The translations under genes and the position numbers were made by a program. Below are positions 51,479 to 64,000 of a DNA stretch of 64,000 nucleotides, in pieces. The notes beneath the pieces were generated by a model. That model was given only the letters and a program-made list of their open reading frames with translations. It ran no database searches and was not told the origin of the DNA. Every line of letters begins with the position of its first letter. Within the stretch, counting starts at the first letter, position 1. Origin of the DNA: Fundicoccus culcitae (lineage in GTDB: Bacteria > Bacillota > Bacilli > Lactobacillales > Aerococcaceae); NCBI RefSeq assembly GCF_024661895.1, contig NZ_CP102453.1:1116001-1180000 (forward strand), read 5' to 3'.

Positions 51479-51895
51479 TTAAGCTTTTCTATATGGATTT
51501 TCTACTTCTGTAATTGCATGAACCTCGTCTACGGATAAGCCTTTTATCTCTTCAGATGTCACATACTTAGTAATGGGTTCAAATGTGCCATCCCAATAAG
51601 CCATGTCAAAAGCTGGAATAAATTGAGTCCGACCATCTTTCATTCTGGCTGCAATATCTTCTTTAACAGCTTGGAAATCTTCCGTTTCAAAGTCCCAAAT
51701 AACCAAATATTGGTATTTATGCGGTTCTGATCCTAATTGGATATCTGATAATTTATAGTAGCGGCCACCTACATACCCAGGGATTCTTAATAAATCATGG
51801 AAATGTTGACCTACATACCAATCGATATACTCTTCTTCTTGACCTTCAGTGGGGTTACTTAATACCAACATGGAATATTTTTTCTTTTCTGCCAT
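51479..51895 (-). CDS. EthD-like dimeric alpha-beta barrel protein, copy 1
   Basis: 138 aa, small cytoplasmic protein of the dimeric ferredoxin-like (EthD/DUF4286-type) superfamily: KYSMLVLSNPTEGQEEEYID, then WYVGQHFHDLLRIPGYVGGR. The conserved WYVGQHFHD histidines are the best active-site candidates. Members occur with CoA-linked aromatic or steroid catabolic genes as isomerases, monooxygenases or unknown helpers. It is virtually identical to the protein at 56979 and ends the minus-strand operon after the sodium symporter. No assigned reaction. Confidence 0.75.
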   Translation of the reverse strand: MAEKKKYSMLVLSNPTEGQEEEYIDWYVGQHFHDLLRIPGYVGGRYYKLSDIQLGSEPHKYQYLVIWDFETEDFQAVKEDIAARMKDGRTQFIPAFDMAYWDGTFEPITKYVTSEEIKGLSVDEVHAITEVENPYRKA

Positions 51896-51939
51896 TTTTT
51901 ACATTCTCCTTTATTTTCAATATCACTTTAAAAGCATTG

Positions 51940-53442
51940 TTATATGTTTAATGCTCTAATATTCTTTTCTGCAGGTGCATCTCTGACTTCATCGTAGGTT
52001 AGATAAGAAACATACACGCCTACAAAAGTTGTAATTGCCATCAAGTAAACTGACCAAGGTAACCCAAATGGCCATTGTATGTCTACAAACAACGGTAATA
52101 GCATACCTATAATATTACCTACTAAAGCAATAATCGCTGCAGCTAACATACCTGTTTTATTGGCTTTTTTCCATATTAATCCAATTAGAATTAGTGGAAT
52201 ATAGAGTGTCATAAACGTTGCCCAGCCTAATGAACCTAGAAGAGCAACCGTGTCACTACTAAACGCAGCTAATAGAATTGAAGCAACCCCAACGAATACA
52301 ATCGCAACTCTCGATACTTTGATTTGTTTCTTTTCATCAAATTTAAAACCTAAGCATTGGAGTACATCTTTTGATAGTGCAGAAGCACCAATGGAAAGAT
52401 ACATACTTGCTGACGAGATAATCGCTGCTACCGCTGCTGTATACAAGAGAACTTGAATGAAGAATCCTAATTCTTCTCCTAAAACCCAAGTTGCGGTACT
52501 TGGATCAGCTAAAGGATCAATCCGACCTGACAGAACGAAAATAATGACTAGCCAACCCATTGCAATACCAAAGAACGATACAATCGCTTGCGTAACACCC
52601 GTTTGGATAGCTAATTTAGGCAAATCACGCGGATTTTTCAAAGCAAACATACGTGTAAGGATAGCCGGCTGACATACAGTACCTAACCATGCTAATAAGA
52701 AGTAGTTCATAGAAGCAGCGGGTGTTGCTGTCCCAAATGCACTAAACATAATAGGTTCAAAGGTATGCGTCACACCATTTGATCCGGTTACTGTATTATT
52801 CTCTGCAACCAGATTAGATAATTCGGCGAAACCACCTTGACCAAAGAATATTCCAATGATAATCGCTCCAACCACAACCATAATCGCTCCTTGGAACGCT
52901 TGCGAAACAATACCAGCTGACTCACCACCAATTGCCACATATAAAATTACAACACCAAACATAATGACTGAACCTGTCAATGTATCCCAACCAAACATAT
53001 AGGTGAAAAGCGAAGCTCCCGCGGAAATTTGTGCAGCTAAATATGCGAAACAACCTAAGAAAAGTACAAGCGATGCGACTAATCGAAGCGACGTACTCTT
53101 ATATCTCGCTTGGATTAAATCACCTAATGTAGCTATATCATTCACTTCAGCTAAAGCACGTACTTTTTTCCCAATAAAGATATACGATAAGGCAAAGGCT
53201 CCGGCCATTAAGGCGTTAGAAGTCATATAGTTTCCACTAGTATAAATATTCGCTGGAAAACCAACAATCATCCATCCAGAAGCAACTGCTGCTGTACCCG
53301 ATAAAGCAACCATCAAGGGGCCAAAACTTTTCGAACTACCTAAAAAGCCTGATGAAGTATCATCATTTTTTGATTTAATCCCCACTAAAAAAGATAAAGC
53401 TAGCAAGAGAATAACTGATCCTAAAATAATAAAATTTTCCAT
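51940..53442 (-). CDS. Sodium:solute symporter family transporter
   Basis: 500 aa with about thirteen membrane segments, SSS (PutP/PanF-like) family. FLGSSKSFGPLMVALSGTAA at the first helices and GWMIVGFPANIYTSGNY fit the family; the sodium site lies in helices 1 and 8. The substrate is unknown; the catabolic neighbours suggest a carboxylate. It follows the 169-aa membrane protein by one base and precedes EthD-like copy 1, so the three form an operon. Confidence 0.88.
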   Translation of the reverse strand: MENFIILGSVILLLALSFLVGIKSKNDDTSSGFLGSSKSFGPLMVALSGTAAVASGWMIVGFPANIYTSGNYMTSNALMAGAFALSYIFIGKKVRALAEVNDIATLGDLIQARYKSTSLRLVASLVLFLGCFAYLAAQISAGASLFTYMFGWDTLTGSVIMFGVVILYVAIGGESAGIVSQAFQGAIMVVVGAIIIGIFFGQGGFAELSNLVAENNTVTGSNGVTHTFEPIMFSAFGTATPAASMNYFLLAWLGTVCQPAILTRMFALKNPRDLPKLAIQTGVTQAIVSFFGIAMGWLVIIFVLSGRIDPLADPSTATWVLGEELGFFIQVLLYTAAVAAIISSASMYLSIGASALSKDVLQCLGFKFDEKKQIKVSRVAIVFVGVASILLAAFSSDTVALLGSLGWATFMTLYIPLILIGLIWKKANKTGMLAAAIIALVGNIIGMLLPLFVDIQWPFGLPWSVYLMAITTFVGVYVSYLTYDEVRDAPAEKNIRALNI

Positions 53443-53443
53443 T

Positions 53444-53953
53444 CTAATTATCCTCCTCTATTGTTTCAGATGTTTGACTTTGACTATCAGCATCATTATT
53501 TAATGAAGCCGCATAGTCAACAAAATCATTCCATTTCTTCTCTGGTAACCAAGTATCTTTAAAAATGTAAAGAAATCCTCCTAGATAAACTAGATTTCCA
53601 ATCCAACAAATAGCATAGAAATAAAATGCTGAAGGATGCATCCCCATTATGGTAAAGCTAGGAATATTATTACCAAAATAATAATAGTAGTAGATCATTC
53701 CCGTAATAGCTACAAACATTAAAATGCCCCAACCCACTACAAAAATCCAACTCAGTTTTTTATTAATTTTTTCACCTTCGGCTAACCCTAAAATAACATT
53801 AATCATTCCGTGAATGATTGTTAAATACATGCCAACAAAGCCTAAATCCATATAGACAAATACAATCATAGCAATCCATAAAACAGGTAGAAACAGTACT
53901 AATTTGTCTTTAAGAGAGTTAGAAATATGATATACACTCTTATCGTTATCCAA
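53444..53953 (-). CDS. Small membrane protein paired with the sodium symporter
   Basis: 169 aa with four hydrophobic segments (for example VLFLPVLWIAMIVFVYMDLG) and an acidic tail of Asp/Glu/Ser/Thr. SSS transporters such as PanF are often encoded after small DUF997/YhdT-like membrane proteins; this one is about twice that size. I do not recognise the family with confidence. It starts the symporter operon. Confidence 0.68.
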   Translation of the reverse strand: MDNDKSVYHISNSLKDKLVLFLPVLWIAMIVFVYMDLGFVGMYLTIIHGMINVILGLAEGEKINKKLSWIFVVGWGILMFVAITGMIYYYYYFGNNIPSFTIMGMHPSAFYFYAICWIGNLVYLGGFLYIFKDTWLPEKKWNDFVDYAASLNNDADSQSQTSETIEEDN

Positions 53954-54313
53954 AAAAATAACCTCCTTTATATGTCTTCTTGCCGAAAGAAATTAATTGA
54001 CAATAATTACTGGCGTTTTATATAAACTCTCGCGTTAACAACCTCCTTCATAAAAAGTTGACCTACAAGATATAAAGCAATCATCCTAAAGTAAATTCAA
54101 TGCGAAAATGGTAAGAACCGTTTTGATTTATTGATGGTAGCGATATTTATTTAAAAATCATTCTTTATATTTTTGTACGGCAAATGTCATCTTATCAATC
54201 AATGATTACGGTTTCATTATAGTGATAAATACATAAAAGTAATATGCTAAATATAAGCTAAATTTATAACCAAATTTCCTATTTAAATAGGATAAACTGA
54301 ATTAATACATACA
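53954..54313. promoter_or_regulatory. AT-rich upstream region of the symporter operon
   Basis: About 360 bases with no gene. It holds one dispersed 10-mer (54142-54151). A TATAAT-like run occurs but I cannot fix the promoter. Confidence 0.4.
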
Positions 54314-54362
54314 AAAACTGACTATAAAGCATGAATTGAGACATCCTTTATAGTCAGTTTAA
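54314..54362. terminator. Terminator after the two-domain hydrolase
   Basis: AAAACTGACTATAAAG and CTTTATAGTCAGTTT arms with A-rich and T-rich flanks. Confidence 0.85.
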
Positions 54363-54381
54363 AAAAAATCTATAAACTTAA

Positions 54382-55665
54382 TTAACCTACATAGCCGTCA
54401 TCGAGTGACTCAATTAAATCTTCAATAATAGGGGCTACTTTTTCAGGACTTTCGACTGCAATGAAGTGTCCATAGCCATCGATAACATGTAACTCTTTAT
54501 CATCTGTTCCTGTTAAGCGTTCCATTGTACCTTTAGCCATCTCAACCGTGTAAATAGTATCGTCAGTCCCCTCAATAATTCTTACCGGGCATTTCACTTC
54601 GTGAACTCTATCTTTTATGTCAAAGAAGAAACAAATATCAAAGTCACCCCGTTTAAGGACAGACGTTTCAGTAGCAACGCCCCAACGGATGAAATCGAAA
54701 CGGTCTTGTGACGTTTTACGACCTACCATTGAATCTGAGAATTCACGTTGAGTAACACCAACGTTGTTGGCAGGGTGTGTTAATAATGGAATCATACCGC
54801 TCGTATCTTCAACAGATGTATCATCATTTCCTTGCATACACACAACAGCTCTTACTTCATCTGGGTGTTCGATTGCCATGTGATAAACAATCCCACCTGA
54901 CATAGAGCATCCTACATAGATGGGACGATCAACTCCTAGAGCTTTTGTAATATCCCAAATCCAATTACCATATTCATTATAGTCATTAACAACCGTGTTC
55001 CCTTGTAAGGGCATTGATTTACCATGGCCTGGTTGATCAGGCGCATAAATACGGTACTTATCTTTGAAAATATTCATTAAATCATGGTATTGGCGATTTT
55101 CACGACCAGCTGTATGCAGAGCGATAATAACACCTTTATCGGTTGGGCCATCATTGGTTTCTACATAAATTTTCACACCATTAACAGTGATATAGAATCC
55201 ACGAACATAATCATGGTTATCTAAAACGGGTTGATTTGCTTCACGTATAGGGCGATCTGAATAAATTTCTTCGTTATCACGGATATATGAGTAAATACGG
55301 GCAATATGGGCTAAAGTCGTATTGAACTGACGATTTAATAGTTTAGGACCGTAAACTTTCCAACCTTCGTCATCCGCAAAATCGGTATTGATATATTGGA
55401 TACTCCGTTGATAATTATCTTTTAAATGATCCCAAATACGCCCTTCGCCACCAACTCCAATATAGGTATTTTCATCAGCGTCAGGTTTGCCTACAGTAAT
55501 TTCATCAATATGTCCATTAGTTAGATGTAGCGTGGCTACTTCATCATCTTCAATAATCATTATAGGTCCTGTATAATGTTCTGCCGCATAGTAACCTAAA
55601 AACTCTTCGCTACCATTACCATTTAAGAAATCTTGAACTTTTTCTAAGTTATCAATTAATTTCAA
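54382..55665 (-). CDS. Two-domain alpha/beta hydrolase
   Basis: 427 aa from TTG at 55665, six bases after AGAGGG; the ATG at 55683 lacks a ribosome site. The N-terminal part (about 1-140) is an unrecognised domain with strands such as GPIMIIEDDEVATLHLTNGH, loosely like SCP2-type ligand domains. The C-terminal part is an alpha/beta hydrolase: the nucleophile elbow GCSMSGG, oxyanion region LHTAGRENRQ, DQPGHGKS, and the last histidine in DGYGHFIAVE. It probably cleaves an ester, thioester or C-C bond of the compound handled by this island. Confidence 0.82.
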   Translation of the reverse strand: MKLIDNLEKVQDFLNGNGSEEFLGYYAAEHYTGPIMIIEDDEVATLHLTNGHIDEITVGKPDADENTYIGVGGEGRIWDHLKDNYQRSIQYINTDFADDEGWKVYGPKLLNRQFNTTLAHIARIYSYIRDNEEIYSDRPIREANQPVLDNHDYVRGFYITVNGVKIYVETNDGPTDKGVIIALHTAGRENRQYHDLMNIFKDKYRIYAPDQPGHGKSMPLQGNTVVNDYNEYGNWIWDITKALGVDRPIYVGCSMSGGIVYHMAIEHPDEVRAVVCMQGNDDTSVEDTSGMIPLLTHPANNVGVTQREFSDSMVGRKTSQDRFDFIRWGVATETSVLKRGDFDICFFFDIKDRVHEVKCPVRIIEGTDDTIYTVEMAKGTMERLTGTDDKELHVIDGYGHFIAVESPEKVAPIIEDLIESLDDGYVG

Positions 55666-56022
55666 ATTTTTCCCTCTTTTCATAATAATTACTTTATTCA
55701 GCCATAATATAATATACAGGCTGAATCTGCTTTACATATCTATTATAAACGCTTCCATTGGAAGAATTAATACTCTTTATATGCAAAAAAAACGCCCTAT
55801 TATCCTTCTTTAATAGGAAAAATATTTCCATTTCAGAACCTTTTACACTATAAACAGCGATATATCAACTTTTTCAGTCTTTTTTTACACATAGATGCCT
55901 TTCTATGCCTAATAGTAAAGACTATACTTTTATGCTATATTTATAGAATAGTTATTAAATAAGTACATAATAAATATCACAACATTTATAGAGATATTTA
56001 TTATAAGAAAGAAGGAGATGAA
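55666..56022. promoter_or_regulatory. Divergent region with an inverted 10-mer pair
   Basis: About 355 bases between the divergent hydrolase and BKACE genes. TTCAGCC/GGCTGAA forms a hairpin at about 55696-55724. AATAAATATC (55969-55978) and GATATTTATT (55993-56002) form an inverted pair 21 bases before the BKACE ATG. A regulator gene is not present nearby. Confidence 0.65.
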
Positions 56023-56892
56023 ATGGGTATTTCTAGGAATAAGCCAACAATAATCACAGTAGCTCTTTCTGGATCCTTAGGGTCAAAAACACGTAATCCT
56101 AACACACCCGTGACCAATGATGAAATGATTGAAGATGCTTATCAATGTTATTTGAATGGTGCTTCAATTGCCCATATTCATGTTAAAGCAGACGATAAAG
56201 AAACCTATGAAATCAATCGCTCATCAATTAAATATATTATTGATGGTTTAGCTAAAAAATGTGATATGATTGTTAACGTTTCTACTTCAGGTGAAGAGGC
56301 TACTTATCAAGGCTTAAAAATAAAAGGCGAAATTGATCCTCTTCAAAAAAAGCGACTCAGTATATTAGATGAAAGACCCGAAATGGTTTCATATGATATC
56401 CCAACCATGAATTTAGGCGAGCAAGTTTTTATTAATCCTCGTCCCTTTTTAAGACAAGCTGGACTAAGAATGCAAGAATTATCCATTTTACCTGAAATTG
56501 AAATTTTCAATTTAAGTGATATCCATCAAGCCTCCCAATTAATTCAACAAGGTTATTTAGCTTCTAATGCTAACTTTCAACTTTGTTTAGGCGTTGAAGG
56601 AGGGACACCCGCAACGGTTAAAAACTTAGTCTTTTTACAGGATGCTTTGCCTTCAGGCGTAAATTGGAGCGCTTTTGGAATAGGTAGTATGCATTTGCCA
56701 ATTATGTTTACAACGCTTGCTCTAGGAGGTAATATTCGCGTAGGCTTAGAAGATAATCTGTATTATTCTTATGGTCAATTAACTTCAAATGTTGAGCTAG
56801 TTCAAAGAGCTGCTAGAGTAGTTAAGGAGTTCGGAAATGGTGTTGCAACTCCTAATGAAGCGAGAGAATTGTTAGGCATTCGACAGAGTTAA
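56023..56892 (+). CDS. Beta-keto acid cleavage enzyme (BKACE, DUF849)
   Basis: 289 aa. BKACEs are zinc TIM barrels that condense a beta-keto acid with acetyl-CoA to give acetoacetate and a new acyl-CoA. IIVTVALSG-like start (PTIITVALSGSLG), metal histidines His51 and His53 in IAHIHV, and GGNIRVGLEDN near the C-terminus define the family. It is the only plus-strand gene of the island and has GAAGGAG before the ATG. Related members act in lysine fermentation (Kce), carnitine and phloroglucinol (triacetate) breakdown; the substrate here is open. Confidence 0.88.
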   Translation: MGISRNKPTIITVALSGSLGSKTRNPNTPVTNDEMIEDAYQCYLNGASIAHIHVKADDKETYEINRSSIKYIIDGLAKKCDMIVNVSTSGEEATYQGLKIKGEIDPLQKKRLSILDERPEMVSYDIPTMNLGEQVFINPRPFLRQAGLRMQELSILPEIEIFNLSDIHQASQLIQQGYLASNANFQLCLGVEGGTPATVKNLVFLQDALPSGVNWSAFGIGSMHLPIMFTTLALGGNIRVGLEDNLYYSYGQLTSNVELVQRAARVVKEFGNGVATPNEARELLGIRQS

Positions 56893-56910
56893 TTAAAATA
56901 TTTATAGAAC

Positions 56911-56973
56911 AAAAAACTGGCTAACACAGCGATTAAACTTCATTTTACAGTTTAATCATTGTGTTAGCCAGTG
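56911..56973. terminator. Bidirectional terminator
   Basis: ACTGGCTAACACA and TGTGTTAGCCAGT arms with a second inner stem (GATTAAACT/AGTTTAATC), between convergent BKACE and EthD-like copy 2. Confidence 0.9.
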
Positions 56974-56978
56974 CTCTA

Positions 56979-57392
56979 TTATTTTCTATAAGGGTTTTCT
57001 ACTTCTGTAATTGCATGTACTTCGTCTACGGATAAGCCTTTTATCTCTTCAGATGTCACATACTTAGTAATGGGTTCAAATGTGCCATCCCAATAAGCCA
57101 TGTCAAAAGCTGGAATAAATTGAGTCCGACCATCTTTCATTCTGGCTGCAATATCTTCTTTAACAGCTTGGAAATCTTCCGTTTCAAAATCCCAAATAAC
57201 CAAATATTGGTATTTATGCGGTTCTGATCCTAATTGGATATCTGATAATTTATAGTAGCGGCCACCTACATACCCAGGGATTCTTAATAAATCATGAAAA
57301 TGTTGACCTACATACCAATCGATATATTCTTCTTCTTGACCTTCCGTAGGGTTACTTAATACCAACATGGAATATTTTTTCTTTTCTGCCAT
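56979..57392 (-). CDS. EthD-like dimeric alpha-beta barrel protein, copy 2
   Basis: 137 aa, differing from copy 1 (51479) only in lacking the last alanine at protein level. At DNA level the two genes plus about 10 upstream bases are almost identical, with a few synonymous changes. It follows the DMT transporter gene in the same direction. It would act as a small cytoplasmic dimer; function as for copy 1. Confidence 0.75.
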   Translation of the reverse strand: MAEKKKYSMLVLSNPTEGQEEEYIDWYVGQHFHDLLRIPGYVGGRYYKLSDIQLGSEPHKYQYLVIWDFETEDFQAVKEDIAARMKDGRTQFIPAFDMAYWDGTFEPITKYVTSEEIKGLSVDEVHAITEVENPYRK

Positions 57393-57444
57393 TTTTTACA
57401 TTCTCCTTTTTTATTTTTAATTATTTTGATTACCTTGTTTATGC

Positions 57445-58464
57445 TTAGTTCCCTAGGCTAGCATCACTGTTAGCTCTACGTTCAGCAAAGATTTGTTTCA
57501 ATCCAGGATATAGTACAACGATTGAACCAATTGATGTGATAACCATACCTATAGCCAAGTTTAATGTAATTGTTTCTCCAATAAAGATGGAAGAAATGAT
57601 TGGTCCTAACGTTATTTTTAATAAGAAACAAACAGAAGCTTCAGTTGCACTTGTCAGTTCCATCCCTTTAAAGTAGCATAAGAATCCAATCCCAGTTTGT
57701 ACAACCCAAATCCAAATTACCCAAGGCATAGATTCTAAAGTATACCCACCAAATAAATTGATGTATGATAATACTGGAAAACCATTAGCAGCAAAGAAAT
57801 CGCCAATTGCAGGGATATTTGTTGCAAAAATAAAGACGAAAGTAACAAGGCCACCAATGATAGAAGTGAAACTGTTTGCTGCTAAACCACCCAATTTCTG
57901 AGTCGTACGCTTACCAATTACACTATATAAAGAGAAAGTGATAACAGTAATTAACATATAAAACAACCCGGTCATATTTAAAGGTTGTCCAAAAGGATTT
58001 ACAATAATAAATACACCAATTAACGAAAGAACAATCATCCACAATTTATTTTTTGTTAATGGTTCTTTGAATAACCAACGCGAGAATAATGCCGTTGTAA
58101 CTGGATTAGTACATAGTAGAACTGCAGCAACGGACGCGGGAATTAATGCTAACGCCATTTGATAGAAAGTCATTGAAATAGTAACATTTAAAATACCACA
58201 TAATACGATGTCAAAAATATCTCTACTTGTTAGTTGAATTTTATTCGTACTTTTAGTTCCTATATCATTTTTCTTCAAATGTTTTATAGCGAATGGTAAT
58301 AATACTAAACCCCCAAAAAAGAAACGTGTAGCAACAAATTGCACAGCATTAAATTGACCCCCTACTGTTTTGAAAATAGGCTCAGCCATACTAAAAATGA
58401 TTGTTGTTAAAAGAATGTAAAAATATCCTAGTTTGATATTTTGTGTTGACTTAACACTAGTCAT
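57445..58464 (-). CDS. EamA/DMT family transporter
   Basis: 339 aa with ten membrane segments in two EamA repeats (the first about 15-150, the second about 165-315; SRWLFKEPLT and GPIISSIFIGETITLN mark the ends of each). The family moves metabolites such as amino acids, nucleobases or carboxylates, mainly outward. In this island it may export an intermediate or import a substrate. Operon with EthD-like copy 2 after about 50 bases. Confidence 0.88.
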   Translation of the reverse strand: MTSVKSTQNIKLGYFYILLTTIIFSMAEPIFKTVGGQFNAVQFVATRFFFGGLVLLPFAIKHLKKNDIGTKSTNKIQLTSRDIFDIVLCGILNVTISMTFYQMALALIPASVAAVLLCTNPVTTALFSRWLFKEPLTKNKLWMIVLSLIGVFIIVNPFGQPLNMTGLFYMLITVITFSLYSVIGKRTTQKLGGLAANSFTSIIGGLVTFVFIFATNIPAIGDFFAANGFPVLSYINLFGGYTLESMPWVIWIWVVQTGIGFLCYFKGMELTSATEASVCFLLKITLGPIISSIFIGETITLNLAIGMVITSIGSIVVLYPGLKQIFAERRANSDASLGN

Positions 58465-58898
58465 GCTTTTTTCCTCCTAGACATAAGACTTTGCAATCTT
58501 ACGTATTAATTTTTTTGAATTCGGTAATACTAAAATCTTATAATGCCATGATTTTACGATGTATGAAGATGTTTAAACTTGAATGATCACCTATCTTCTA
58601 CTGTTAAAAGCGTAATTATATATCGATTTGAGATAAGTACCTCCTTTTTAAATAGTAATCTGTGAAATTACTATTAATAAATTTCTTTTTTTGTCTTAAA
58701 TAACAATTTATTCCTTATGCAACAGATTCCAAGTTTTAAATCATTATTTCTGTTTGCGGTTTCATTATAATAATTACCTATCAAAACTAAAATACGATAA
58801 TTGAATGAATATTCTACTGTTTTTTACTACTTTTGTAGGTGTAGAAGCACTTAAAAGCTTTTATTAAACCATACTTTCATATTTTTATACTAAACAAC
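58465..58898. promoter_or_regulatory. AT-rich intergenic region
   Basis: About 430 bases with no gene. It should hold the promoter for the DMT gene. I see no clear dyad or repeat. Confidence 0.4.
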
Positions 58899-58940
58899 AA
58901 AGCACGGTTGAATGAGCGTCGCTCCTTCAACCGTGCTTTT
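58899..58940 (-). terminator. Terminator of the catabolic operon
   Basis: AAAGCACGGTTGAA and TTCAACCGTGCTTT arms; the T-run on the minus strand is short. It ends the operon running from the DUF35 gene to the hydrolase at 58944. Confidence 0.85.
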
Positions 58941-58943
58941 CAA

Positions 58944-59729
58944 TTATTTAATAAATAACCACTTTCCATAAGTAACTAATGCTGCAACAACTGCCTCAGG
59001 TTGTTCTGGAATCAATGAATGGCTAGCATTTGGAATTTCTACGGTTAATACTCTCTCTCCAAATAAATCACGCATTTCATTTGCTCTTTCTTTCGGTGCA
59101 AATGGATCTAATTCAGCTCTCACTTCAAAGATAGGAACTTGACCACCAGCATCCCACCATTCATCTTGCGGAGATAATTTTGTTGCTTCTGTGTGAAGTA
59201 CTTTAGTTTCCTGGTACCACCCACTTAACCATTTTGTAGCATCGCCATTTGGACCAAAGAAAGCCATTTTAATAAATTCAACTCTTTCATCGTCTGGTAA
59301 TGTTAAATCACTGCTTTTAGCTAAAGCTTGGCTTATTTCGGGCAAGAACTCACCTTTAGCAGCTGCAGCTAACACACAAATTCCTTTAACTAAATCAGGT
59401 CTAGTTACTGCTACAATACGAGCAATCCAGTTACCGAATGCATGACCAACAATAAATGAAGATTTAATATTTTCTGTGTCTAAAACAAGACTGACTTCTG
59501 CAGCTAAATCATATAATGAAACATCAGTCATTGGTCCAGTAGAGTTATTTATTCCACGATATTCCGGCCTGATAACCTTAAATCCTTGACTTGCAATTGA
59601 AGGAACAATTTCATCAAAATCAGATTGACTCCTACCTTTTGAAGGTAATAAAACGAGAGGCAATCCTTCACCATCAACATAATATTCAACAGTAACATCA
59701 TCCAAATGAGCTAATTTTATCTCTGTCAA
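58944..59729 (-). CDS. Alpha/beta-hydrolase-fold protein lacking the nucleophile serine
   Basis: 261 aa, fold as in 3-oxoadipate enol-lactonase and ring-cleavage hydrolases (LPLVLLPSKGRSQSDFDEIV, then RPEYRGINNS, with the final His in IPNASHSLIP). At the nucleophile elbow the sequence reads VGHAFGNW, so Ala97 replaces the usual Ser of GHSxG. The codon is a clear GCA. It may be a non-hydrolytic member (lyase- or cofactor-free oxygenase-like) or use another residue. Last gene of the thiolase/CaiB operon. Confidence 0.82.
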   Translation of the reverse strand: MTEIKLAHLDDVTVEYYVDGEGLPLVLLPSKGRSQSDFDEIVPSIASQGFKVIRPEYRGINNSTGPMTDVSLYDLAAEVSLVLDTENIKSSFIVGHAFGNWIARIVAVTRPDLVKGICVLAAAAKGEFLPEISQALAKSSDLTLPDDERVEFIKMAFFGPNGDATKWLSGWYQETKVLHTEATKLSPQDEWWDAGGQVPIFEVRAELDPFAPKERANEMRDLFGERVLTVEIPNASHSLIPEQPEAVVAALVTYGKWLFIK

Positions 59730-59757
59730 CTTTACTCCTCCTCGTAATAAATATCTC

Positions 59758-61221
59758 TTAAAAAACGATTGGCATCCAGTAATAAACAGTTAAAACTATC
59801 ATAAATAAACTTACGACGACTTGTGGTAAACCAAGTTTTAGCATTTCACCCATAGTAAAGTTATTTGTAGAGTAAAGTACACCCATTGCTGGTGTACCAC
59901 TAGGAAATGTAAATGCAAAACCTGCTCCAAGTGCGGCTACAGTCATAAGTGGCAGCGGATCTGCGCCGATTGAGTTTGCTAAAGTTGCTGCTATTGGAAT
60001 TAAAATTGTACCAGTTGCAGTATTTGGTGCCATTTGTGTCACTAGAATTGCTAATAAAGCAACCATGAACATAACAACTATTAATGAACTGTTTTCGAAA
60101 ACCAATAATTGGTTACCAATCCATTGAGCTAGATCAGTACCTGAGAATCCGGCTGCCAAAGCCATTCCTCCACCAATCATTAATAAAACGTCCCAAGAAA
60201 TATTTTTAATATCGCCTTTACCAAGTAATTTTTGACTACTTTTTTCTTTTGATGGCACAGAGAATAATACAATCGTTGCAACCATTGCAATCATACCGTC
60301 GTTAATTCCAGGAATTAAATCGGACCACAAGAAAGTTCTTGTTACCCAGAAAAATACTGTTACGATAAATGTAATTCCAACAACTTTTTGCTCAAAGGTT
60401 AAACCTTGGCTTTTTGCCTGTTCCTCTTTAATAAATTCAGCAGCACCTTCTGAAGTATCTACATCAATTTTGTACATAACTTTTAAAGTTACGAAGTAAC
60501 TTACAACCAATTGTACTAATGCAATTGGAAACTCAAATAACATAAATGATCCAAAGGGAACATCGATGCCATATAATTCGTTCGCAAAACCTGCTAAAGA
60601 TGTATTAGTAGGTGTCCCAATTAGAGTCATACTTCCCCCGATAATGGCACCAAAGACAACAGCTACCATTAAGATTTTTTACAATTTAATTGAGTTATCT
60701 TCTGTATATGAACCCTGTTTTTTCATTAATTCTGTAACTTTTAAATGAATAGCGCTTGCAATTGGTAATAACATTAAAGCTGTAGCAACATTTGAAACCC
60801 ACATTGAAATAAATGTTGCTGTTAAAAGTAAACCAATATACAATTTATTCGTACTTGTACCTACTAAACTAATTACTTTTAATGCAATAACATTATGTAA
60901 TCCCCATTTTTCGATTGCAATACCTATAACAAAACCTCCTAATAATAGGAAAACAGTTGAGTTACCATAAGCACTTGCAACAGCTCCGGCTGATAAGGAA
61001 TTAAAGATTGGTAATAATACTAAAGGTAATAAACCAGTAATCCCTGAAGGGATGAATTCAACCATCCACCAGATACCCATCCAAGTTAAACTTGCTAGGA
61101 CGTTTTTGCCTTCAAATGTAAGCCCTTCTAGTGGTATGAGCAAGATAATTAAGTAAAATAGTGGACCTGCCAAAAATTTGATTAAATCTTTTGTCTGAAA
61201 GCTTAATTTTGTATTAGACAC
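59758..61221 (-). pseudogene. DASS/SLC13-type anion transporter interrupted by an in-frame stop
   Basis: Two consecutive pieces in one frame together make a DASS carrier of about 487 residues: 61221-60679 (first 180 residues, ending EDNSIKL) and 60678-59758. The TAA at 60679-60681 is where the family has a residue before KILMVAVVFGAIIGGSMTLI. The two halves carry the matching helix-turn signatures VSNVATALMLLPIA and TPTNTSL, then the second SNT-like MAPNTATGTILIPIA. Known substrates are di- and tricarboxylates or sulfate. A restart at ATG 60669 is possible but would yield a split protein. It lies in the thiolase operon, so loss would remove one uptake route. Confidence 0.8.
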
Positions 61222-61388
61222 GTTGTCTCCTCCTCAAACATAAATTTTATATGAGTGATTTTTATTTTTAAAGCATTGAATTGTTTTCCATTTGTATACT
61301 TTTACAAAAAAAGACATATTGATACTTTCACTATTTAAGAACTAAAATTAGAATCCTTAAATAGTGAAAATTAATTTGTTACTATATA

Positions 61389-62582
61389 CTAAATCACTCC
61401 TTCAGCACGGAAAGTAGCAATTTCATCATCTGAATATCCCAAATCTTTTAAGATTTCATCTGTATGTTCGCCTAATAATGGAGATGAACCTCTAACATAC
61501 GGAGATGTTTTGGACATTTTAATCCCTTGATTAGTAATCTCGACATCGCCAATAGTTGGATGATTAACCGTTGTAAACATTTCACGAACATTCACATGTT
61601 CATTTTCATACATTTGGGGAACTGTCAATGCTGCTCCGGCAGGTAACCCATTACTTAGTAATAAAGATTCTAGTTCATGAACTTCAAAATTGCGTGTCCA
61701 CTCATTCACAATATCATCTAAAGCAGGATAATTAGCTACACGTAATTGGTTCGTTTCAAAACGTGGATCCGTTAATAATTCTTTTTGATCCATTACTTCA
61801 ACTAGCTTATTCCACGCACGATCACCCAATGCCATTAAAACCAGATTGCCATCTTTGCATTCATACAATCCCCCAGGTGCACCAGCTAAATAGCCGTTAC
61901 CACGACGAGTTGGAATATAACTTTTGTCGGTTAAATAACCTTGAACGACTGAAGACATACTTACAATAGTTGCATCTAATAATGAAACGTCAATGTATTG
62001 ACCTTCACCTGTCTTATTACGATATTCTAAAGCTGCTAACACACCGATTACAGCATTTTGTGCAGCCATGACATCAGCAATGGAGGCACCTGCTCGAACT
62101 GGTGGGTTTTCTGGATATCCCGTGATATCCATCATACCACTCATAGCTTGTGCTAACGGATCATAACCCGCTCTTTGTGAGTAAGGACCTGTTTGGCCAA
62201 ATCCAGAAACGGAGGCCATGATAATTTGAGGATTAATTTTACGCAATTCTTCATAACCAAAACCAAGTTTTTCCATAACACCCGGACGGAAGTTTTCTAA
62301 AACAACATCCGCTTTTTCAACTAATTTAACTAAGATGTCACGACCTTTTTTCATATCAAGCGTCATACCACGTTTGCTTCGATTAAATTGAATAAAATAA
62401 GTCGATTCGCCATCTTTCATTGGCAAATTGTCTCGAGCATTGTCTCCACCTTGAGGCATTTCAATTTTAATAACGTCAGCACCTAAATCAGCTAACATGG
62501 CCGCGGCAAAAGGGGCAGCAATAACACGTCCTAAGTCAAGCACTTTTAACCCCTCTAAGGCTGAACCTTTAGTGTATTCCAT
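61389..62582 (-). CDS. CaiB/BaiF family III CoA-transferase
   Basis: 397 aa, the family length. LKVLDLGRVIAAPFAAAMLA starts the fold, with DVIKIEMPQGGD, NRSKRGMTLDMK, the catalytic Asp170 in SIADVMAAQ and GAPGGLYECKDG. These enzymes move CoA between carboxylic acids through a mixed anhydride. It most likely activates the substrate of the island with CoA from acetyl-, succinyl- or product-CoA. Its ATG directly follows the thiolase stop (TAGATG). Confidence 0.92.
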   Translation of the reverse strand: MEYTKGSALEGLKVLDLGRVIAAPFAAAMLADLGADVIKIEMPQGGDNARDNLPMKDGESTYFIQFNRSKRGMTLDMKKGRDILVKLVEKADVVLENFRPGVMEKLGFGYEELRKINPQIIMASVSGFGQTGPYSQRAGYDPLAQAMSGMMDITGYPENPPVRAGASIADVMAAQNAVIGVLAALEYRNKTGEGQYIDVSLLDATIVSMSSVVQGYLTDKSYIPTRRGNGYLAGAPGGLYECKDGNLVLMALGDRAWNKLVEVMDQKELLTDPRFETNQLRVANYPALDDIVNEWTRNFEVHELESLLLSNGLPAGAALTVPQMYENEHVNVREMFTTVNHPTIGDVEITNQGIKMSKTSPYVRGSSPLLGEHTDEILKDLGYSDDEIATFRAEGVI

Positions 62583-63779
62583 CTATTCATTCCCTCCCAA
62601 ATTGTCTTTTTCATTTCCTAAGATTAAAACGGCACTCATTTGTGGTGGGCCACCAAATGTATGGCTTAACCCTAAGTTAGCTTTACCTAATTGACGTTTT
62701 GGATTATCAACTTCATGTAAAATTTGTTTATATACTTCATATGTCATACGAATTCCTGAAGCACCAACTGGGTGACCAAATGATTTTAAGCCTCCATCCG
62801 AGTTAACCGGAAGTCCACCATCTAATTCAAAAAATCCATTGTCAATATCAATTTTTGCTTTCCCAGGCTCACTAAATCCAAAGTCTTCATAAATTAGCAT
62901 TTCGGTAATGGAGAAACAGTCATGAACCTCAGCAAGATCTAATTCTTCACGTGGATTAGTTATACCAGCCATTTTGTATGCTTCGCTGGAAGATTTTTTT
63001 AATGAATTAAAGCTTGTCCAAGAAAAGCCCGGACGGTTATGAGGGAATACGGCATCCGTTGAAACCGCAAACCCTTTAACATAAGCAAATTTATCTTTGA
63101 TTGTTTTTGCCACTTCTTCAGTCGTAATAATTGCACAGGCTGAACCATCTGAATTACCAGCACAGTCATACAAACCTAAAGGATCAGCAATAATGGGCGC
63201 ATTTAATACTTTCTCTAGAGACACTTCACTTTGGAAATGAGCTCTTTTCGATAAAGTCCCATTTTTATGGTTTTTAACGGCAATTTTACCAATAGTTTCT
63301 CGGCCTTCTTGATGAGTGAGACCATACTGGTGGAAATAACGCGTTCCGATTAAAGCAAATGATCCTGGTGCCGTTCTTCTAGCTTCTAAAACGGGACTTT
63401 GTCCACGGCCCACGCCTAAACCTGGGTAACCTGTATCTTTAAGCTTTTCAGCTCCTAAAGCCATGACTACTTTATGACGACCAGAAGCAACATCTTGAAT
63501 TGCTTCGATTAACGCAATATGACCGGATGTACAATAGTTTTCATTACGTACAATGGGAATATCTTGAACTTTTAAAGTATCCGCAACAGCCGTTGCAGCA
63601 ATATTATTCTCCATTCCATTCCCATAATAGATAGCTTCAATCGCTTCAATTGGAACTTTTGAATCTTCTAAAGCTTCGGTTGTTGATTCAATAATTAAAT
63701 CGGAAATGGATGCGTCCCATCTCTCACCGAATTTAGAGCAACCCATACCTAAAATAACGACATTATCTTTAATTTTCAA
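62583..63779 (-). CDS. SCP2-type thiolase
   Basis: 398 aa, thiolase of the non-specific lipid-transfer type. The nucleophilic Cys83 is in NENYCTSG (one residue from the usual CSSG), the HDCFS motif gives the second cysteine, and GLKSFGHPVGASG the histidine; LSHTFGG ends the fold. Such thiolases act with a DUF35 OB-fold partner, which is encoded immediately upstream here. Expected reaction: CoA-dependent cleavage of a beta-ketoacyl-CoA, or in DUF35-partnered forms an aldolase-type cut. Confidence 0.88.
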   Translation of the reverse strand: MKIKDNVVILGMGCSKFGERWDASISDLIIESTTEALEDSKVPIEAIEAIYYGNGMENNIAATAVADTLKVQDIPIVRNENYCTSGHIALIEAIQDVASGRHKVVMALGAEKLKDTGYPGLGVGRGQSPVLEARRTAPGSFALIGTRYFHQYGLTHQEGRETIGKIAVKNHKNGTLSKRAHFQSEVSLEKVLNAPIIADPLGLYDCAGNSDGSACAIITTEEVAKTIKDKFAYVKGFAVSTDAVFPHNRPGFSWTSFNSLKKSSSEAYKMAGITNPREELDLAEVHDCFSITEMLIYEDFGFSEPGKAKIDIDNGFFELDGGLPVNSDGGLKSFGHPVGASGIRMTYEVYKQILHEVDNPKRQLGKANLGLSHTFGGPPQMSAVLILGNEKDNLGGNE

Positions 63780-63781
63780 TC

Positions 63782-64000
63782 TTAATCAACCTTTCTTCTT
63801 AGTGGTCTAACTTTCCAGTAATAATTAGGGAAGTTGGCTAAATTATGAATTTTTCTAAGAGTAAATTCTAATTCCATATCAATTCCAACTTCATTAACAT
63901 CAAAGTCAGTCATGTTCATATAGAATCTAGTACCATGTTGATCTTCTACCACCGATTGAACAACAACTGGATCATCAGAACGTCCTGCCAGATTATCAAT
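63782..64000 (-). CDS. DUF35 OB-fold protein, thiolase partner (partial)
   Basis: The last 72 codons of a minus-strand gene cut by the right edge; the TAA is at 63782-63784. The visible part reads SVVEDQHGTRFYMNMTDF, then VGIDMELEFTLRKIHN, ending YYWKVRPLRRKVD. The beta-barrel pattern with terminal YYWKxRP is the C-terminus of DUF35 proteins, which bind acyl-CoA and form complexes with SCP2-type thiolases. The zinc ribbon expected at the N-terminus lies outside the window. Two bases separate it from the thiolase. Confidence 0.8.
   Translation of the reverse strand: MDNLAGRSDDPVVVQSVVEDQHGTRFYMNMTDFDVNEVGIDMELEFTLRKIHNLANFPNYYWKVRPLRRKVD

Follow-up and report, generated by a model that had tools for sequence, protein, structure and literature searches.

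A putative muconate-degrading gene island without an intradiol dioxygenase in Fundicoccus culcitae

Which acid could a lactic-type fermenter such as Fundicoccus culcitae break down with a set of coenzyme A (CoA)-linked catabolic genes, and how might it do so? The genes in question begin at the right end of a 64,000-nucleotide stretch of its genome, here called the window (positions 1116001-1180000 of a single 3,224,940-base contig, NZ_CP102453.1; the genome is 99.13% complete). All coordinates below are window positions, and adding 1116000 gives the position on the contig. An initial annotation of the window had proposed a CoA-linked catabolic island with acid uptake, thiolysis and a BKACE, and this proposal is supported: the island is real and is unusual within its family. 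The same annotation called the substrate not deducible and reported no regulator, statements that are true only as long as one stops at the right edge of the window. Just beyond it lie a PucR-type regulator gene, a muconate cycloisomerase gene and most of the lower beta-ketoadipate pathway. We propose that the island unites a dioxygenase-free, transporter-equipped variant of that lower pathway with a second module for CoA-dependent breakdown of an acid.

The island and its right module

The island covers about 26 kb, from about 51.5 to about 77.5 kb (its end is at about 77491), and, reading rightward, is split by the end of the window. Its GC content is 34.1%, against 38.2% in the left flank and 39.9% in the right. 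Only the genes for BKACE 1, BKACE 2 and the PucR-type regulator run rightward; all others run leftward. Most likely the island consists of two linked modules, a left one at 51.5-65.2 kb and a right one at about 65.3-77.5 kb, with gene functions throughout predicted from sequence. The right module, all of it beyond the window, holds the following.

65349-66968, plus strand: PucR-type regulator (PF07905, 84.7 bits), beyond the window
67202-68410, minus strand: thiolase (TIGR01930, 473.6 bits; cut-off 240.55)
68426-69088, minus strand: 3-oxoacid CoA-transferase B (TIGR02428, 274.4 bits; cut-off 243.55)
69085-69771, minus strand: 3-oxoacid CoA-transferase A (TIGR02429, 253.8 bits; cut-off 128.5)
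69788-71173, minus strand: AtoE-type transporter (PF02667, 406.8 bits; TIGR00366 below cut-off)
71259-72377, minus strand: muconate cycloisomerase, MLE (TIGR02534, 423.8 bits; curated cut-off 334.95)
72400-73107, minus strand: CMD-family protein (PF02627, 30.1 bits; cut-off 23)
73126-74580, minus strand: intact DASS symporter, DASS2 (TIGR00785, 234.6 bits; cut-off 198.6)
74590-74916, minus strand: DUF3870 protein (PF12986, 69 bits)
75197-76042, minus strand: alpha/beta hydrolase (PF00561, 85.4 bits)
76622-77491, plus strand: BKACE 2 (PF05853, 279 bits), beyond the window

The cycloisomerase aligns over nearly its full length with the Pseudomonas putida enzyme (337 bits), and its K164, K166, D195, E221, D246 and K270 align with residues of that enzyme that we take to be catalytic. 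The thiolase falls below the PcaF model TIGR02430 (428.7 bits, cut-off 597), and the AtoE-type transporter, the CMD-family protein and the hydrolase are placed at the family level only. A search of the F. culcitae genome for intradiol dioxygenases (PF00775) gave no match, with controls positive in 4 of 14 genomes, and one for CatC-type muconolactone isomerases (PF02426) gave none, with controls positive in 2 of 14.

Muconate is a ring-opened leftover of aromatic compounds, and the beta-ketoadipate pathway is regarded as an aerobic route for aromatics. We think it probable that the right module imports muconate or a closely related compound and degrades it without oxygen, while the left module does an analogous job on a second acid. 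Muconate would enter through the DASS symporter and be turned into muconolactone by the cycloisomerase. A candidate isomerase (the CMD-family, DUF3870 or EthD-like protein) would then give the enol-lactone, which the alpha/beta hydrolase would open to 3-oxoadipate. From there two routes can be drawn. In the first, the 3-oxoacid CoA-transferase would load 3-oxoadipate with CoA for cleavage by the thiolase; in the second, BKACE would use acetyl-CoA to yield succinyl-CoA and acetoacetate, the latter being returned to acetyl-CoA by the CoA-transferase and thiolase. Balanced by hand, both routes come to muconate(2-) + 2 H2O -> succinate(2-) + acetate(-) + H+ and are redox-neutral, with acetyl-CoA as the likely source of ATP. 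Each of these steps, like their order, the direction of transport and the energy yield, is predicted from family membership. Because neither oxygen nor a net redox step would be required, such a pathway would suit a fermenter.

Orthologous operons with and without a dioxygenase

The right module has orthologous operons elsewhere. One plasmid of Priestia and one of Peribacillus carry hydrolase, cyclase, CMD, CoA-transferase A and B, cycloisomerase, DUF3870 and thiolase genes in one operon, accompanied by annotated dioxygenases; seven shared proteins are 38-71% identical to those of the island. The genome_contigs collection, scanned with the cycloisomerase alignment, gave 41 loci, 40 from Bacillales and one (L102) from 'Sedimentibacter sp. 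SX930'; the scan reached only those genomes that match either of two peptide patterns, and the window's own genome may be missing from it. At 33 of the 41 loci the stretch examined includes an intradiol dioxygenase; the eight without one are L102, L103, L109, L110, L120, L125, L128 and L136. In the genomes of these eight, PF00775 finds nothing in six, a weak match in L109 (41.8 bits) and a clear one in L120, and two positive controls with a dioxygenase nearby (L105 and L121) both matched.

Among the eight loci that lack a nearby dioxygenase, seven have a DASS or MFS gene within 3 kb of the cycloisomerase gene, compared with 15 of the 33 loci where a dioxygenase is close. The transporter is of the DASS family at L102, L109 and L125 and of the MFS family at L103, L110, L128 and L136; L120 has none. 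On TIGR00895 (aromatic acid/H+ symport), their best model, the four MFS proteins reach 319.7-334.6 bits and so stay under the cut-off, which is 418.55. Five Bacillales genomes (those of L103, L110, L125, L128 and L136) thus combine a cycloisomerase, a nearby transporter and no PF00775 match, and are candidates for aerobic muconate scavenging. In a cycloisomerase tree of 41 rows (our sequence and 40 loci; L139 was left out, its frame being cut at 94 amino acids), the F. culcitae and SX930 enzymes are sisters (100/100) within an eight-row clade (100/99) that also contains L103, L107, L109, L110, L125 and L128. This clade holds six of the seven rows from genomes without a PF00775 match.

The SX930 operon (MUZD01000005.1) is the closest relative of the right module, with DASS, AtoE, BKACE, CMD, DUF3870 and hydrolase genes; there is no dioxygenase in its 21-kb stretch and no PF00775 match in its genome. 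Identity to the F. culcitae proteins is 72% for the cycloisomerase, 74% for AtoE, 78-82% for the CoA-transferase and 81% for the thiolase, then 62-65% for BKACE and 39-50% for the CMD, DASS, DUF3870 and hydrolase proteins. Since the 72-82% group brackets the RpoB identity of the two genomes (79.5%), vertical and horizontal descent are not separable. The operon is flanked by direct repeats (L102 7693-8101 and 19523-19931; 90% over 411 columns) that overlap HTH_36/DnaD_N-type genes, an arrangement suggestive of arrival or movement through recombination.

Reading SX930 as a clostridium, and arguing from it as a strict anaerobe, was rejected on GC content (45.7%) and RpoB. Its RpoB (genome G880) is identical over 996 residues to that of G004, a member of the window's family, and 66-76% identical to those of three named Bacillales, two other class members and eleven phylum genomes; a 16S search found no match in the assembly. 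The name 'Sedimentibacter sp. SX930' is therefore wrong or the assembly mixed, and the public record seems to belong to the window's own family.

With a dioxygenase present at 33 of the 40 Bacillales loci and one of the island's DASS copies already interrupted, the island could be what is left of a conventional aerobic cluster for catechol ortho-cleavage, its dioxygenase lost and the rest now decaying. However, the reading frames of the right half are open and of the same length as in relatives, the additional genes recur in an operon without a dioxygenase in a second genome, SX930, and DASS, BKACE and AtoE look like additions, not losses. We consider a decaying remnant unlikely.

The left module and its possible substrates

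The left half looks like a second acid-degrading module, made up as follows.

51479-51895, minus strand: EthD/DUF4286-like small protein, copy A (open reading frame (ORF) of 138 amino acids; relatives annotated DUF4286)
51940-53442, minus strand: SSS-family sodium:solute symporter (PF00474, 126.2 bits)
53444-53953, minus strand: membrane-type ORF of 169 amino acids, directly upstream of the symporter gene
54382-55683, minus strand: alpha/beta hydrolase of 433 amino acids (PF00561, 66 bits at residues 204-293)
56023-56892, plus strand: BKACE 1 (PF05853, 276.2 bits; cut-off 24.8)
56979-57392, minus strand: EthD/DUF4286-like small protein, copy B (137 of 137 amino acids as in copy A)
57445-58464, minus strand: EamA-family transporter (PF00892, 128.5 bits)
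58735-58839, no strand: repeat of about 105 bp of the fusion/PucR intergenic region (85% identity to 65235-65339, beyond the window)
58944-59729, minus strand: alpha/beta hydrolase of 261 amino acids (PF00561, 43.9 bits)
59758-61221, minus strand: DASS anion symporter gene, interrupted by an in-frame TAA at 60681-60679
61389-62582, minus strand: CaiB-type (family III) CoA-transferase (PF02515, 412.9 bits)
62583-63779, minus strand: SCP2/PhlC-type thiolase (NF004810, 470.1 bits; cut-off 403)
63782-65221, minus strand: fusion of 479 amino acids, with an N-terminal PhlA/HMG-CoA-synthase-like domain and a C-terminal DUF35 domain; 63782-64000 lies inside the window

Profile scores recover the BKACE, CaiB, SCP2-type thiolase, DUF35, two alpha/beta hydrolases and transporters that the initial annotation had listed, with some changes of detail. 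DUF35 is present, not as a separate partner but as the C-terminal part of the fusion; the three transporter genes are SSS, EamA and DASS, the DASS frames being one gene split by a stop codon. Two genes for EthD-like proteins do exist, as near-identical copies (DNA 97.7% over 432 columns, protein 100% over 137 amino acids), but the EthD assignment itself finds no Pfam match, copy A matching nothing even at E up to 10. A Cupriavidus relative (35% identity) matches DUF4286 at E 6.4e-4 and EthD at E 0.0033, both below the cut-offs. Among 120 relatives the protein was matched in one, and among 398 class genomes likewise in one, both times in its own genome alone. A low-confidence single-sequence fold (pLDDT 57.1) has dimeric alpha+beta barrels as its Foldseek matches, with 4-methylmuconolactone methylisomerase (3hds) at rank 5 (E 2.7e-3). 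We take this model as a lead toward a lactone substrate and nothing beyond.

The methylisomerase match, together with the fact that TIGR02534 also covers chloromuconate cycloisomerases, would fit a right module whose imported substrate is not muconate itself but a substituted form of it, a lactone or some other unsaturated dicarboxylate. Against this, the cycloisomerase shares 54-66% identity with its counterparts at the Bacillales loci, where a dioxygenase is present in most cases, and the 26 kb contain no dehalogenase-like or other tailoring gene; we give such a substrate a small but real chance.

In the left module as we picture it, the EthD-like protein and the hydrolases would open the second acid, CaiB would load it with CoA, and the PhlC-like thiolase with the PhlA/DUF35-like fusion would cleave it. 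The 433-residue hydrolase has about 160 extra N-terminal residues (about 55204-55683) that match no Pfam family, and most phylum matches start at residue 160 or later. For the 261-residue hydrolase, PcaD-type NCBIfam models are among the best scores, yet below cut-off, and CaiB exceeds the cut-off of no NCBIfam subgroup. The 169-residue ORF, which matched no Pfam or NCBIfam family at E 0.001, is possibly a small partner subunit of the SSS symporter. Both parts of the interrupted DASS gene match the intact DASS2 of the right module; given the interruption, the left module may be decaying, or may make use of DASS2 or the SSS symporter instead.

The thiolase retains the position of the Cys nucleophile in alignments with PDB structures. 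In the fusion, the PhlA/HMG-CoA-synthase-like domain has Met at the position of a Cys, presumably catalytic, in the archaeal HMG-CoA synthase 6esq; PhlA has Gly there. PhlA-like, DUF35 and PhlC-like parts are encoded side by side (62583-65221), the make-up of a PhlACB-type set. Twenty phylum genomes other than our own match the fusion at 1e-25, and the 14 with both domains covered gave one stretch each. In these clostridial-type loci the SCP2-thiolase adjoins the fusion homologue in 14 of 14 and CaiB lies within the stretch in 4, while BKACE, EthD-like and cycloisomerase genes occur in none. The left half was accordingly rejected as a conserved unit: only the fusion and SCP2-thiolase pair is kept consistently. 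Matches to the fusion in other relatives are 20-29% identical throughout, a level expected of ordinary HMG-CoA synthases. On Variovorax and Sphingomonas plasmids the pair sits among catabolic genes, for example those for an SDR protein, a dehydratase or hydratase, and a CoA-transferase, and genes for ring-hydroxylating dioxygenases lie close by. As the pair is both constant in the clostridial-type loci and found on proteobacterial catabolic plasmids, an acyl-cleaving role beside CaiB is likely.

Those plasmids, and a CaiB gene (36%) directly before an EthD-like gene in S. paeninsulae, would also be compatible with one single pathway that has its core in the left half and its lower part in the right, and that degrades an acid of aromatic, alicyclic, terpenoid or steroid type. 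To break down such a compound the cell would require an acyl-CoA dehydrogenase, an enoyl-CoA hydratase and a ring hydroxylase, however, and none is found among the proteins of the 26 kb. Inspection of the DNA right of the window, as the initial annotation had advised, yielded the start of the DUF35 fusion and a regulator but no acyl-CoA dehydrogenase. We regard a single pathway as quite improbable.

BKACE 1 and BKACE 2 are 78% identical, and both retain the HxH and GLEDN motifs in alignment with Kce. At the position of Kce Glu14 in the alignment, BKACE 1 has Leu and BKACE 2 has Gln. A phloroglucinol-type substrate had been suggested for the window, and the phloroglucinol (TAL) pathway of Clostridium scatologenes does use a BKACE, a CoA-transferase and a thiolase (PMC10470551). 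Its BKACE has Trp16 at the Glu14 position, which neither island enzyme shares, and the 26 kb include no reductase or cyclase-family gene. Anaerobic phloroglucinol-type degradation is very improbable here.

The PucR-type regulator gene and the fusion gene are divergent and use one intergenic region, and about 105 bp of this region recur between the 261-residue hydrolase gene and the EamA gene. The recurrence hints at common control of the two modules in the past.

Right of the island, inspection by eye shows a sugar-use operon at 77630-85292 (alpha-galactosidase-like, ABC transporter and sucrose-phosphorylase-like ORFs, with an adjoining AraC regulator) and, at 87918-97527, three sortase-like ORFs with several ORFs that have LPxTG-like ends, perhaps a pilus cluster.

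Weighing the proposal against known systems

Several observations weigh against muconate as the substrate and against the pathway drawn above. PF00775 was the sole ring-cleavage family searched in the F. culcitae genome, and the CatC-type step has no enzyme of its own family there. DUF3870 was considered as a CatC replacement and gained no support from its fold: a relative modelled with 14 sequences (pLDDT 89.6) has as its best VIA match a lipoylation protein, 3r07_C (Z 8.0, rmsd 2.6, 79 aligned), with no Foldseek match at E 0.001 and no muconolactone isomerase among the rows listed. The family is also widespread, occurring in 55 of 398 phylum genomes, and nine further DUF3870 stretches have no close muconate set, one of them (L075) having a single 26% cycloisomerase-superfamily match. 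BKACE 1 exceeds the cut-off of no NCBIfam subgroup; it reaches 190.5 of the 350 bits required by the 3-oxoadipate:acetyl-CoA acetyltransferase model NF053568 and scores higher on the Kce model (249.2). BKACE lies near the cycloisomerase in 1 of 41 loci, that of SX930, and AtoE within 3 kb likewise in that one, so that their role rests on two genomes of one family. Within the eight-row clade, L107 has a dioxygenase, and dioxygenase-free L136 lies outside it; import of muconate in place of its making is thus a trend with exceptions, not a rule. Finally, the left half is no conserved unit across the 14 clostridial-type loci.

Two related observations stand apart from these. F. culcitae has a second DUF3870 gene in a different context (G000:C1:2595643-2595924), and L116 has a 36% AtoE match 8.8 kb from its cycloisomerase.

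Unrelated conserved contexts or widespread decay had been named in advance as what would undo the idea of an island. Neither is seen in the right half. The left half shows something of both, given the stop codon in its DASS gene and the 14 clostridial loci that have PhlA/DUF35-like and thiolase genes but no BKACE or EthD-like gene.

It is tempting to go further, though we hold the following to be doubtful: lactic-type fermenters may ferment muconate to succinate and acetate, oxygen-independently and redox-neutrally, and so finish the aromatic breakdown of aerobic neighbours. BKACE would offer a second way to process 3-oxoadipate besides loading it directly with CoA, and the left module, by means of its EthD-like protein and SCP2-type thiolase, would widen the range to muconolactones that carry a methyl branch. 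If so, the bacterium would live on the scraps of oxygen-using neighbours, and aromatic carbon could be finished where oxygen is gone. Should the lower half work alone in fermenters and in some transporter-bearing, dioxygenase-free Bacillales, muconate would be an intermediate traded between cells, and annotation should not take a cycloisomerase as proof of ring cleavage. A literature search found no report of dioxygenase-free muconate use in Firmicutes; it covered subscription journals thinly and is weak evidence of novelty.

Among known systems, the PhlACB acetyltransferase (5m3k) and the archaeal thiolase/HMG-CoA synthase/DUF35 complex (6esq) resemble the left module in their PhlA/HMG-CoA-synthase-like, DUF35 and PhlC-like thiolase parts, and PhlA, like the island's domain, lacks the Cys seen in 6esq. 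In the island, however, the PhlA-like and DUF35 parts are fused, and their neighbours (CaiB, BKACE and transporters) place them in a catabolic context. Kce lysine fermentation and the phloroglucinol TAL pathway (PMC10470551) likewise pair BKACE with a CoA-transferase and a thiolase that recover acetoacetate as acetyl-CoA; in the island BKACE is joined by a muconate cycloisomerase, and its Glu14 equivalent is Leu or Gln.

The SX930 operon shares ten gene families with the island, including BKACE, AtoE and DASS, and is also free of a dioxygenase. It differs in gene order, in running on a single strand throughout and in an extra DUF3870 gene, and its 21-kb stretch is without the CaiB, SCP2-thiolase, fusion and EthD-like genes of the left module. 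The catechol branch in its Bacillaceae form (catB, catC, pcaD, pcaIJ, pcaF) has the orthologous cycloisomerase, CMD, hydrolase, CoA-transferase A/B, thiolase and DUF3870 genes in one operon; by comparison, F. culcitae has no PF00775 or PF02426 match, and its island adds DASS, AtoE and BKACE.

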